64,000 nucleotides of DNA from Bryobacter sp. Lineage in GTDB: Bacteria > Acidobacteriota > Terriglobia > Bryobacterales > Bryobacteraceae. The translations under genes and the position numbers were made by a program. Location: contig JALHNH010000020.1 of the NCBI GenBank assembly GCA_022843625.1, positions 1-64,000 on the forward strand. The letters are read 5' to 3'. The notes beneath the pieces are model-generated. The model made no database searches and was not told the DNA's origin. It saw nothing but the letters and a program-made list of their open reading frames with translations. Positions 42,192 to 47,550 of this stretch are shown here, in pieces (positions within the stretch are counted from its first letter, which is position 1; each line of letters starts with the position of its first letter).

Positions 42192-43361
42192 ATGAGGCAA
42201 ATGATTTGGTTGGCGTTTGGCATTTTATTGACCTGGGCGGGGCTTGGGCAGGGACGGCCGGAGGAGCGATGGTGGAAGGGGAATTTGCATACGCATTCGT
42301 TCTGGTCGGATGGAGATGAGTTTCCGGAAATGGTGGCGGATTGGTATCGCGAGCATGGGTATCATTTTTTGACGCTGAGTGACCACAACGTGCTGAGTGT
42401 GGGCGAGAAGTGGATAAAAGTTGGCGGAGATGCGCTTTTGCGTTACGAGGCGAAGTTTGGGAAGGATTGGGTGGAGGCCCGGCGGGGAGAAGTGAGATTG
42501 AAGACGTTTGATGAGGTGAGGAGCCGGGTGGAGGAGCGGGACCGGTTTTTGATGATGCCATCGGAGGAGATCACCGGTCGCTCGGGGGACGGACGGGATA
42601 TTCATATGAATGCGACCAATCTCGGTGAAGTGTTGCCGGTGGAAGTGGGCGGGACGCTAGCGGATACGATTGTCCGGAATCAGCAGGCAGTGATGGCTTC
42701 GGCCAAGCGGACCGGGCGGCCGGTGATGTTTCATGTGAATCATCCGAACTATAAGTGGGGAGTGAGTGCGGACGCTCTGGCGGCAGTGGCGGACTTGCAG
42801 TTTGTCGAGATATGGAATGGTGTGGACAACGATAACGATCCGGGGGACGCGACACATATCAGTTCAGAGGCGATGTGGGACGTGGCGAATGCGTTGCGGA
42901 TGACGCAGTATGGACGGGGGCCCTTGTATGGACTGGCGACAGACGATGCGCATGACCATCAGCCCGGGAAGACACGGGCGATTCCGGGGAGGGCTTGGGT
43001 GATGGTAAAGGCACGTTTTTTGAGCACGGAGTCGTTGCTGAATGCGATGAGTTCCGGTGAGTTTTATGCGTCGAGTGGGGTAAGGCTGAAGGACGTTCGC
43101 TTTGATCGTGAGGCGCGGCGTCTGGATTTGGCTATAGAGGGAGTGGCTGGTGAGAAGTTTGTGACCAAGTTTGTGGGGGTGAAGAAGGGTGGGAAAGCGG
43201 GTGTTGTTCTGGCTGAGGTGGCAGGCACCAATCCGAGTTATGCGATGCGTGGGGATGAGTTGTATGTAAGGGCGGTGGTGAGTTCTTCGCTTACACCGGA
43301 GGTGCCTTCACAGGAAGATCCGTATCAGCGGGCCTGGACACAGCCGGTAGGTTGGAGATGA
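42192..43361 (+). CDS. secreted PHP-domain metal-dependent phosphoesterase-like protein
   Basis: Signal peptide; KGNLHTHSFWSDGDEFPEMVADWYREHGYHFLTLSDHN. Confidence 0.85.
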   Translation: MRQMIWLAFGILLTWAGLGQGRPEERWWKGNLHTHSFWSDGDEFPEMVADWYREHGYHFLTLSDHNVLSVGEKWIKVGGDALLRYEAKFGKDWVEARRGEVRLKTFDEVRSRVEERDRFLMMPSEEITGRSGDGRDIHMNATNLGEVLPVEVGGTLADTIVRNQQAVMASAKRTGRPVMFHVNHPNYKWGVSADALAAVADLQFVEIWNGVDNDNDPGDATHISSEAMWDVANALRMTQYGRGPLYGLATDDAHDHQPGKTRAIPGRAWVMVKARFLSTESLLNAMSSGEFYASSGVRLKDVRFDREARRLDLAIEGVAGEKFVTKFVGVKKGGKAGVVLAEVAGTNPSYAMRGDELYVRAVVSSSLTPEVPSQEDPYQRAWTQPVGWR

Positions 43362-44563
43362 CGGACAGGTTTGCGGTTGCGCAGCAGCGGGTGCTGTGGG
43401 GGGTGATGGTTTGCTACCTGTTCTTTTATACGGGGCGGCAGAATCTTGGCTTTGCCGTGAAGGGAATGCGAGGGGAGCTGGGGTTCTCTGCGACCGATAT
43501 TGCCTGGTTGAATGCGGCGCTGTTGCTTGGATATGGACTGGGACAGGTGTTGAACGGGAACCTGTCGGATATGTTCAGCGCGAGGCGAATGGTGGCGGCT
43601 GGGGCTGTATTGTCTCTTTGTTTGAACTGGGGATTCAGCTTTGTGGGTTCGGCGGCTGCGGGGATGACGATCTGGTTTGCGAATGGGTTAGTGCAGTCTT
43701 CTGCTTCGCCGGCGCTGAGGCGGTTGATTGTGGACTGGTTTCCGCAGGCTGAACGTGGAAGGGCACTGGGGTATCACTTACTCACGGCGGGCTTTTCGAG
43801 TTCGTTGACTTATGCACTTTGTATCTGGACGCTGACTGGCTTTGACTGGCGGTGGGTGTTCCGGTTGCCGGTACTTACGATTCTGATTGGGACAGGATTG
43901 TTCCTGTGGCTGGTGAAGGATCATCCGCGGGATCTTGGGTTGCCGGAACTGCCTGCAGAGGAAGCGGAATTGGCGGCAGCGAAATCGGGTGAGACGCCGA
44001 TGGAGCGATACCGGATGGTGTTGCGGTGCAGGCCGTTTTTGTTGTGCTGTCTTTCGATTGGATTTGAGAGCATGGTGCGTTATGGGCTGTTGAGCTGGGT
44101 ACCTGTGCACTTTTTGAAGACATCGAATTTGTGGGTGACGCTTGGGTTGCCGATCGGCATGGCGCTGGGCGCGTTTAGTGCAGGTTTGTTGACGGACAAA
44201 TGGTTTGCGCACAGGCGGGCGTGGGTGGCGAGCGGGCTGATGGCCGGGGCGGCGGGAGCGACGTTTTTGTTGAGCCTGATGCCAACGGATTCGCCATTTG
44301 CGTTTGCATTGCTGGCCGTTGCGGGTTTTCTTGTGTATGCGCCGCAGGCTTCTTATTGGGCGCTGGGACCTATGCTGGTGGGGCGGGACCGGGCGGGTAC
44401 GTCAACCGGCATTATGGATGCGGTAGCTTATGCGTTTGCGGCGCTTGGGCAGGTGGCGATTGGATGGACGATTGATGCCACGGGATCGACGTTTCCGGTA
44501 TTTGTGCTGCTGGCGGTTGCTTGTGTGTTGGGGGCGATTGTGATCTTGCCGGTGAGGCGATGA
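43358..44563 (+). CDS. MFS transporter, organophosphate/phosphonate-type candidate
   Basis: FFYTGRQNLGFAVKGMRGELGFSATDIAWLNAALLLGYGLGQVLNGNLSD; ATGA overlap with upstream gene. Confidence 0.88.
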   Translation: MTDRFAVAQQRVLWGVMVCYLFFYTGRQNLGFAVKGMRGELGFSATDIAWLNAALLLGYGLGQVLNGNLSDMFSARRMVAAGAVLSLCLNWGFSFVGSAAAGMTIWFANGLVQSSASPALRRLIVDWFPQAERGRALGYHLLTAGFSSSLTYALCIWTLTGFDWRWVFRLPVLTILIGTGLFLWLVKDHPRDLGLPELPAEEAELAAAKSGETPMERYRMVLRCRPFLLCCLSIGFESMVRYGLLSWVPVHFLKTSNLWVTLGLPIGMALGAFSAGLLTDKWFAHRRAWVASGLMAGAAGATFLLSLMPTDSPFAFALLAVAGFLVYAPQASYWALGPMLVGRDRAGTSTGIMDAVAYAFAALGQVAIGWTIDATGSTFPVFVLLAVACVLGAIVILPVRR

Positions 44564-45162
44564 TGGAAGAAAGGATGTTTATGAGTCGTAACGTGGAATC
44601 GGTAGTTGAAGAAGTTTTTGAGCTTTTGACTCGCACAGGTGGCGAGCAGTATTTTGGCGAGGCAGTATCGAAGCTGGTACATGCGGAGCAGTGTGCGTGG
44701 TTTGCAGAGAAGGCTGGGGCGGATGTTGAGCTTGTGCTGGCTTCGCTGTTGCATGACATCGGGCATTTGCTGGAGCATGAGATGGCGGTGCGGGATGAGC
44801 GGGTGGGCGTTGTAAATCATGATGAGCTGGGAGAGATGTGGTTGCTCGAGCGCGGGTTTGGGCCCAGGCTGGCGAGGCTTGTGGGCGGTCACGTGGATGC
44901 CAAGCGCTATTTGACTGCGACGAATGTGGCTTATATGGAAAAGCTTTCTGATGCAAGTAAAGAGACGCTGGTTTTGCAGGGTGGGCCGATGGATGCGGCG
45001 GATGCAGCGGCTTTTGCCTCCCAGCCGGAGTTGAGGGATATATTGCGTTTGCGGAGCTGGGATGAGATGGCGAAAGACCCGGAGTTGCTGGTGCCCGATA
45101 TCGAGAGTTACCGGCGGCGGATGGTGGATTATCTGACTGGCTTAGGGTCGCTCGCCGTTTGA
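44560..45162 (+). CDS. HD-domain protein of phosphonate operons, PhnZ-like
   Basis: GGEQYFGEAVSKLVHAEQCAWFAEKAGADVELVLASLLHDIGHLL; ATGA overlap with MFS gene. Confidence 0.8.
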   Translation: MMEERMFMSRNVESVVEEVFELLTRTGGEQYFGEAVSKLVHAEQCAWFAEKAGADVELVLASLLHDIGHLLEHEMAVRDERVGVVNHDELGEMWLLERGFGPRLARLVGGHVDAKRYLTATNVAYMEKLSDASKETLVLQGGPMDAADAAAFASQPELRDILRLRSWDEMAKDPELLVPDIESYRRRMVDYLTGLGSLAV

Positions 45163-45945
45163 AAGGCGGTGGTTGATGTGGTCAATGACCGAGGGGAGAT
45201 CCGCTACGGAGTCGATGATGTAGTCGGCACCGAGGGATTTGAATTTGGCATAGGCGGTCTGGAAACGTTGCTCGCGATCTTCGGTTGAGAGGGCGGCGAG
45301 GGCTTCTTGCGAGAGGCCGATCTCGTTGCCTGTCGCTACGATCGAGACAGCCCAGGCGCCGGCGGCTTTGGCTTCGGCAATGTCGATGGGGGTGTCGCCT
45401 ACTTTGATGAAGGTGTGGAGCGGGTAAAGGCCCATGTGTTTTGCGGCGTGGTAGATCATCCAGGGGGCAGGACGGCCGGTGCCGACGAGGTCTGGGGTCA
45501 TGAAGATTTCGGGCGTGAAACCGCCAGCTGCGGTAGAAGCTTTTACGGGGCCGAGCATGCCGGAATCAAAGCCTGTGGTAGTGGCGTAGCGGATCTTGCG
45601 GCGGACAAGTTCTTCGACGAGTTCTTTCACGCCAGGGAGCACTTCCACGTGGTTCGCGAGGGTTGCGATCTGGACGGCTGTGAACTCAGGGTAGATGGCG
45701 TCGACATCTGCGGCTGTGGGTGGCTGGCCTTTGAGGGCGATCCATTGGGCATGGATTTCAGGCTCGTTGAGCATGGCCCAGATGTGGTCCCATTTGTGAG
45801 AGCCCATAGGGCCGCGGGCTTGAGCTTCAGTAGCTTTGATGCCGTGTCGGCGGCATAGCTCTACGAAGGCGACTACAGGGCCGCGACTGCCGAAGTCGAT
45901 GACGGTACCGGAGAGGTCGAAGATAATGGCTTGTACAGTGTTCAT
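45142..45945 (-). CDS. phnX: phosphonoacetaldehyde hydrolase (HAD superfamily)
   Basis: Start re-assigned to MNTVQAIIFDLSGTVIDFGSRGPVVAFVELCRRHGI; ARGPMGSHKWDHI carries the Schiff-base Lys context. Confidence 0.88.
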   Translation of the reverse strand: MNTVQAIIFDLSGTVIDFGSRGPVVAFVELCRRHGIKATEAQARGPMGSHKWDHIWAMLNEPEIHAQWIALKGQPPTAADVDAIYPEFTAVQIATLANHVEVLPGVKELVEELVRRKIRYATTTGFDSGMLGPVKASTAAGGFTPEIFMTPDLVGTGRPAPWMIYHAAKHMGLYPLHTFIKVGDTPIDIAEAKAAGAWAVSIVATGNEIGLSQEALAALSTEDREQRFQTAYAKFKSLGADYIIDSVADLPSVIDHINHRLSNGERP

Positions 45946-46961
45946 TGTTTCTCGTTTGGGTAGATTGCGACGCGGGGTGGTTTGTGTGAGTGGGCGAAGG
46001 CGAAGGCTTCGTTGATTTCGTTGAGTGAGTAGTGGCCTTCGATCAGGGTTTCGAAGTTGTATGTTGTGGCGGCGAGGAAGTCGAGGGCGGCGGCGAGGTC
46101 GTTGGGGGAGTAATTGTGGACGCCTTCGATGCGGAGGCATTTGCGAACGATTTGTTCGGCAGGGAGCTCTATGGGACGGCTGGGGAAGACGGCGCCGGCG
46201 AGGATGAAGGCGGCGGCGGTGCGGAGGTATTGGATGCCCTGCTCCATGGCGTCGGGGTTGCCGGTGAAATCGAGAACGACGTGGGCGGAGTTTTGTTGAG
46301 GGTTGAGGGAGGCTCCGAATTGGGTGGCGAGGGCTTGACGCTGGGGATCGGTGTCGATGGCGAAGACTTCTTTTGCGCCCTGGTGTTTGGCCATGGCGCA
46401 GGCAGTGAGACCGAGCATGCCGGCACCGAGGATGACGATGGTCTGGCCTTTGATGGGAGATGCTTTGCGGAGGACGGCGGCTACGGTGGCGGTGGCGCAA
46501 TTGGCAATGCTGGCAACGGGATCTGGGATGTTGTCTGGGATTTTGAAGATCGCGGTGCCTGCGGGGAGGAGGCAGTATTGGGCGAAGCCTCCGGTGAAGT
46601 GGGAGGTGGGGGTGATGGCGGCATGGCCGAATTTATAGAGATGGTCACATTTGGAGTGGAGGCCGCGGAGGCAATTGTCGCAAGCGCCACAGGACCAGAC
46701 CATGGACCAGGTGATGCGGTCTCCGGGGTGGAAGCTGGTGTCTGTGGCTACGATGTCTCCAACCATTTCGTGACCGAGGACAGAGGGCGATGGTGAGTTG
46801 CGGCGGCCTGTGCGGGTGTGTAGATCGCTGCCACAGATGGTGGCGCAGCGGATGCGGACGAGAGTCTCGCCCTGGTTGATTTTTGGGATGGGAAAGGCGT
46901 CGATTGTGAGTGGCTGGCCGGGGGCGTGAAAGACGGCAGCGAGGGCTGTATCGACGGGCAT
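45942..46961 (-). CDS. zinc-binding alcohol dehydrogenase, phosphonate-catabolism-associated type
   Basis: CATICGSDLHTRTGRR, GHEMVGDIV, zinc Cys cluster CGACDNCLRGLHSKCDHL; 4-bp overlap with phnX. Confidence 0.88.
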   Translation of the reverse strand: MPVDTALAAVFHAPGQPLTIDAFPIPKINQGETLVRIRCATICGSDLHTRTGRRNSPSPSVLGHEMVGDIVATDTSFHPGDRITWSMVWSCGACDNCLRGLHSKCDHLYKFGHAAITPTSHFTGGFAQYCLLPAGTAIFKIPDNIPDPVASIANCATATVAAVLRKASPIKGQTIVILGAGMLGLTACAMAKHQGAKEVFAIDTDPQRQALATQFGASLNPQQNSAHVVLDFTGNPDAMEQGIQYLRTAAAFILAGAVFPSRPIELPAEQIVRKCLRIEGVHNYSPNDLAAALDFLAATTYNFETLIEGHYSLNEINEAFAFAHSHKPPRVAIYPNEKQ

Positions 46962-46971
46962 CTACATTAGA

Positions 46972-47550
46972 CTAGCGTGACTTGAGAAGGACCCAGGTGG
47001 TCATGGCGCGCTGGTTCTCAACGACGGTGGTTTTGATGGGGTCGAGGAGCTGCATGTTGCGGCCTTCGGCAATGTGGTGGAGGAGTTCTGCATCGACCAG
47101 GTATCGATCGGAGCCATCGGGGAGAAGGAAGCGGCGGCCGGTGATTTGCTGGATCTGGTGTTCAATTCCGATGGAGGAGGCGAGGCGGCAGAAGAGGATT
47201 CCGCCGGGGCGAAGCTTGTCGAAAATGTTGGAGAGCATAGCTTCGAAGTGGCCTTCGTCGTGGGCGAAATGGAGGACGGCGCTCGCGATGATGAAATCAA
47301 AAGAAGCATCGGGAAATGACATTGATTCGATGGGTTCGCACCGGAATTTTTCCGGGGGGAGACCCGGGATCGATTGGCGCTCCTGATCGACGGCGCTGAC
47401 GTCGTAGCCCTGGCTGATGAGGTAACGGATGTTGCGGCCTTCGCCGCAGCCGGCGTCGAGGATTTTCATTCCGGGCTGGATGCGACCCCGGAGCATTTGA
47501 TCGATGAGGTAGATGTCGGTGTTGCCGAGTTGTTGCTGGAGCGGGGTCAT
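46972..47550 (-). CDS. class I SAM-dependent methyltransferase
   Basis: MKILDAGCGEGRNIRYLISQGYDVSAVDQ, FDFIIASAVLHFAHDE. Confidence 0.88.
   Translation of the reverse strand: MTPLQQQLGNTDIYLIDQMLRGRIQPGMKILDAGCGEGRNIRYLISQGYDVSAVDQERQSIPGLPPEKFRCEPIESMSFPDASFDFIIASAVLHFAHDEGHFEAMLSNIFDKLRPGGILFCRLASSIGIEHQIQQITGRRFLLPDGSDRYLVDAELLHHIAEGRNMQLLDPIKTTVVENQRAMTTWVLLKSR

Follow-up and report, generated by a model that had tools for sequence, protein, structure and literature searches.

The 64,000-nucleotide stretch of Bryobacter sp. DNA analysed here (hereafter the window) encodes a zinc-dependent alcohol dehydrogenase (ADH) and the phosphonoacetaldehyde hydrolase PhnX within a locus for phosphonate catabolism. 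It is fairly likely that the ADH is a nicotinamide adenine dinucleotide (NAD)-dependent 2-hydroxyethylphosphonate dehydrogenase that would deliver phosphonoacetaldehyde (PAA) to PhnX, with a PHP-domain hydrolase and a major facilitator superfamily (MFS) transporter probably supplying the substrate and a PhnZ-like HD-domain protein on a side branch. Such a system would be a PhnW-independent phosphonatase pathway. In this soil-type Acidobacteriota genome, the proteins of the locus would probably free an alcohol-type phosphonate, take it up and oxidise it, 2-hydroxyethylphosphonate being the likeliest candidate, before its carbon-phosphorus (C-P) bond is cut to obtain phosphate.

Organization of the locus and conserved residues of the dehydrogenase

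On the plus strand, the genes for the PHP-domain metallohydrolase (42192-43361), the MFS transporter (43358-44563) and the HD-domain protein (44560-45162) converge on the minus-strand genes for ADH (45942-46961) and PhnX (45142-45945). Exact ATGA overlaps join PHP to MFS (43358-43361), MFS to HD (44560-44563) and ADH to PhnX (45942-45945), while the 3′ ends of HD and PhnX overlap tail to tail by 21 bp. All five reading frames are intact, and together with the coordinates they confirm the convergent, overlapping layout put forward in the original prediction for this DNA.

That prediction also placed the ADH and HD proteins in phosphonate-associated families. The assignment holds for the ADH, which scores 349.9 bits against TIGR03366 (cut-off 328.1) and is the only protein in the genome above that cut-off (all genome-wide checks were family searches against curated cut-offs). 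The HD protein falls 4 bits short of TIGR03276 (210.5 bits, cut-off 214.6) and is therefore named PhnZ-like only. PhnX passes TIGR01422 (299.1 bits, cut-off 220), and both its aspartate nucleophile (in the motif FDLSGT) and its Schiff-base lysine (in MGSHK) are present.

The ADH was compared across 83 loci, comprising 80 recovered by scanning genome contigs with three aligned ADHs, the window itself and two phylum matches. The catalytic-zinc ligands C43, H64 and C155 are invariant in all 83 proteins, as are R54, W85, K110, H113, N283 and Y284, a set that mostly differs in the seven ADH paralogues of the same genome. The structural-zinc cysteines are replaced in ~24 of the 83. The invariant basic residues R54, K110 and H113 suggest a charged substrate, and they may bind its phosphonate group. 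Position 203 is aspartate or glutamate in every one of the 83 proteins, which by the general rule for cofactor choice suggests NAD+.

Partners of the dehydrogenase across phyla

The 83 loci were selected on ADH similarity alone, the neighbourhood was set at 6 kb, and NCBIfam and Pfam served to verify the names of neighbours (PhnA, TIGR02335; phosphonoacetaldehyde dehydrogenase, TIGR03250; HpnW, TIGR03364; PhnX, TIGR01422; DUF5690). An enzyme that uses PAA (PhnX or PhnX-like, or PhnA/PhnY) is encoded nearby in 46 of the loci, and an MFS protein of the same family or a DUF5690 protein in 53. In favour of the ADH as the PAA source, neither HpnW nor a PhnW-type aminotransferase lies nearby in 29 of the 46 (HpnW was not sought genome-wide in the relatives). 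The genes for ADH and PhnY lie side by side in many Verrucomicrobiota loci and in two from Actinomycetota. The combination of genes had been described as unusual; instead, its core of ADH, PhnX (or PhnY/PhnA) and MFS is found repeatedly in different phyla, for the most part with no PhnW, a pattern to be expected of an ADH that makes PAA from 2-hydroxyethylphosphonate. A quick ADH tree without bootstrap shows at least three changes of partner between PhnX-type and PhnY/PhnA and at least five changes of transporter. The partner switching supports a PAA-making ADH, because PAA is the metabolite common to the PhnX and PhnY/PhnA pathways.

These partners also bear on a different role for the enzyme. 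PhnX yields acetaldehyde and its gene overlaps that of the ADH, an arrangement that would suit an ADH disposing of the PhnX product by converting acetaldehyde to ethanol. However, PhnA/PhnY accompany the ADH in 23 loci, and the product of such clusters is acetate rather than acetaldehyde; this, along with the charged substrate suggested by R54, K110 and H113, makes acetaldehyde removal quite improbable.

Whole-genome family tests covered 50 ADH-bearing genomes. PhnX was above its cut-off in 10 and PhnA in 20; by hand tally, one or the other was present in 30 (24 of the 26 outside Bacteroidota). PhnW was above its cut-off in 8. All seven ADH-bearing Bryobacterales genomes encode PhnX, compared with 9 of 396 genomes sampled from the phylum (Fisher p ~1e-11, a value that ignores relatedness).

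Possible sources of phosphonoacetaldehyde and the PhnX subtype

PhnW had been reported as missing from the window, and the proposed search of the genome extends this result: no protein genome-wide reaches the PhnW cut-off (best score 99.8 bits versus 400.8). A PhnW-like match on contig C47 was rejected, since it scores better as an aspartate-glyoxylate aminotransferase. Family searches likewise found neither phosphoenolpyruvate mutase nor the C-P lyase protein PhnJ in the genome, and PhnX is present as one copy, at this locus.

The flavin oxidase HpnW, by contrast with PhnW, scores above its cut-off twice elsewhere in this genome (G000:C11:155957-157045 and G000:C94:5-1093), the C11 copy adjoining a divergent phosphodiesterase-like gene. 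With 86% identity between the two stretches, one copy may be contamination from a relative; the reported contamination of the genome is 5.12%. A distant HpnW might mainly feed PhnX from N-methyl-aminoethylphosphonate, with the ADH running in reverse (PAA to hydroxyethylphosphonate) or acting on an unrelated alcohol. This scheme would match three of the seven Bryobacterales genomes, in which PhnX lies beside HpnW on a separate contig from the ADH. In the window, however, it is the ADH and not HpnW that PhnX overlaps, and the ADH-PhnX pair is retained in loci L024, L025, L027 and L028. We consider the HpnW scheme quite unlikely. The originally proposed route from 2-hydroxyethylphosphonate through PAA to acetaldehyde and phosphate is the best supported, given the recurrent partners mostly without PhnW, but HpnW could also feed PhnX. 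More generally, ADH, HpnW and PhnW occur as alternative or combined neighbours among PhnX loci.

The nucleophile motif of the window PhnX is DLSGT in place of DWAGT, which is usual but no formal requirement. D(L/I)SGT was found in the window, L024, L025, L027, L028, L029 and L033, each time in a PhnX encoded directly downstream of the ADH, whereas nearly all readable PhnX sequences adjoining HpnW or PhnW have DWAGT (Fisher p ~1e-6, ignoring kinship). The subtype may reflect either shared descent or a changed substrate. In the latter case the ADH could act on another hydroxyphosphonate, such as 2-hydroxypropyl- or 1,2-dihydroxyethylphosphonate, with the D(L/I)SGT PhnX adapted to the ketone or hydroxyaldehyde so formed. 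The strict pairing of this motif with the ADH would fit such a scheme. Yet this ADH family, its invariant residues unchanged, also pairs with PhnY and PhnA, which require an aldehyde that is converted to phosphonoacetate. Moreover, the D(L/I)SGT loci belong to what is essentially a single ADH clade, and the motif may therefore be due to common ancestry. A different hydroxyphosphonate is thus rather unlikely.

Several observations weigh against the assignment of the ADH as a 2-hydroxyethylphosphonate dehydrogenase. A distinct PhnX subtype beside the ADH is not predicted by plain PAA as the substrate, and with HpnW encoded elsewhere in the genome the ADH is not the only possible source of PAA. 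No PhnX, PhnA or PhnY is encoded within 6 kb in 37 of the 83 loci, some of which come from short contigs. Some of the partners counted as PhnX, chiefly in Bacteroidota, are only PhnX-like, and the count of 46 consequently mixes strong and weaker cases; the name PhnX was dropped for the Bacteroidota partners, which score below the TIGR01422 cut-off. Finally, the activity of the ADH, including its substrate and direction, is deduced from sequence.

The PHP, MFS and HD proteins and neighbouring genes

The PHP protein is a predicted exported phosphoester or phosphonate-ester hydrolase, with a probable signal peptide judged by eye. It scores 72.7 bits against the CehA/McbA family NF038032, below the cut-off of 80; its AlphaFold model, from three sequences, is poor (pLDDT 36), and Pfam matched no domain in its long relatives. 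Proteins ~56% identical to it, with the HxH/D/H/E/DxH residues kept, are encoded directly upstream of the ADH in the Verrucomicrobiota loci L085 and L088, the latter in the order PHP-ADH-HD-DUF5690. PHP, HD, ADH and a transporter therefore recur together in two phyla, although the near-identical ADHs of L085 and L088 make this thin evidence for the PHP linkage.

The predicted phosphonate importer matches MFS_1 (144.9 bits). Its score against the OPA family TIGR00881 (147.3 bits) lies below the cut-off of 407.75, and the protein, which groups near PgtP, GlpT and UhpT, resembles OPA transporters but fits no exact family. MFS proteins of this family are encoded next to the ADH in many loci. In others (L029, L033, L034, L036, L037 and more), DUF5690 (PF18943) repeatedly takes the place of the MFS, and it is probably a phosphonate transporter.

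The HD protein, a candidate mixed-valent diiron oxygenase, has PhnZ as its nearest solved structure (4n6w/4mlm, E ~1e-44). Alignment to these structures shows that the ligands H..HD..H..H..D, the YxxE loop and the KR pair are all kept, and its likely substrate is an (R)-1-hydroxyphosphonate. Since the YxxE glutamate of PhnZ touches the amino group of the substrate (PMC8177086), the most straightforward candidate is a 1-hydroxyphosphonate that bears an amino group. The genome contains one copy, at this locus, a second match being weak. HD genes occur in 8 of the 83 ADH loci including the window, with a further partial match in L024.

A class I S-adenosylmethionine methyltransferase (46972-47550, minus strand; Methyltransf_11), missed in the original prediction, is encoded 10 bp upstream of the ADH and is possibly the first gene of the ADH-PhnX unit. 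In the sister species represented by L024, whose ADH is 89% identical to that of the window, a methyltransferase fragment (93% identical) is retained directly upstream of ADH together with PhnX, and the partial HD match lies ~2.2 kb past PhnX in converging direction. Within the 83-locus set, this methyltransferase was not found in loci other than these two.

Two further features were noted in ADH clusters. A helix-turn-helix-cupin regulator (PuuR-like) recurs in L046, L048, L058, L063, L066, L070, L074, L075 and others and is absent from the window locus. In L060, L064, L078 and L082 (Gemmatimonadota/Latescibacterota), IMP-dehydrogenase-like and NAD-epimerase-like proteins are encoded just upstream of ADH-PhnA-HpnW, without PhnY.

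Discussion

In the proposed pathway, the exported PHP hydrolase would probably free the phosphonate from an ester and the OPA-like MFS, judging from its family and linkage, would import it. The gene partners and conserved residues of the TIGR03366 ADH point to oxidation of 2-hydroxyethylphosphonate with NAD+ to PAA, which PhnX, with its catalytic residues present, would by family function convert to acetaldehyde and phosphate. The PhnZ residues of the HD protein suggest a parallel branch that may cleave an (R)-1-hydroxyphosphonate, for example 1-hydroxy-2-aminoethylphosphonate, by the PhnZ mechanism.

As in the PhnW-PhnX phosphonatase pathway, the locus combines hydrolysis of PAA by PhnX with dedicated transport, but the genome has no PhnW above the cut-off and the ADH stands in its place. 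Relatives of the ADH adjoin PhnY and PhnA of the PhnW-PhnY-PhnA pathway, whereas the window uses PhnX instead. The HD protein has its metal ligands and YxxE loop in common with PhnZ of the PhnY*/PhnZ oxidative pathway, but no PhnY* was noted beside it (PhnY* was not sought genome-wide). The Achromobacter cluster hpnW-phnSXUT with phnHD (PMC11203657) similarly has PhnX and an HD gene and lacks PhnW; it encodes the flavin oxidase HpnW and an ABC transporter where the window encodes ADH and MFS. A clustered enzyme that broadens the substrate range of the hydrolytic pathway at its front end also has precedents in PbfA, PbfB/C/D and PbfF, a racemase (PMC8154272, PMC10590968, PMC12366243); the window enzyme differs in being a zinc ADH of TIGR03366, unrelated to PbfF. 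For PbfF, a 2-hydroxyethylphosphonate dehydrogenase activity had been raised only as the less probable alternative before its racemase activity was established (PMC12366243), and we found no catabolic enzyme of this kind in the open-access papers searched.

Esters of 2-hydroxyethylphosphonate are reported within the phosphonate pool of marine dissolved organic matter (PMC9381506, PMC5649143), and their demonstrated use is by C-P lyase, with release of ethylene. We would put at about even the broader proposal that TIGR03366 supplies the 2-hydroxyethylphosphonate dehydrogenase so far missing from a modular pathway that operates without PhnW in a number of phyla. Such a pathway would have importers of its own (an OPA-like MFS or DUF5690) as well as exported esterases (PHP among them), and in one clade its PhnX would be of a specialised D(L/I)SGT form. 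If true, a dehydrogenase-PhnX/PhnA route would use 2-hydroxyethylphosphonate without producing a hydrocarbon gas, and a function would be provided for an NCBI family so far named only 'putative phosphonate catabolism associated'.

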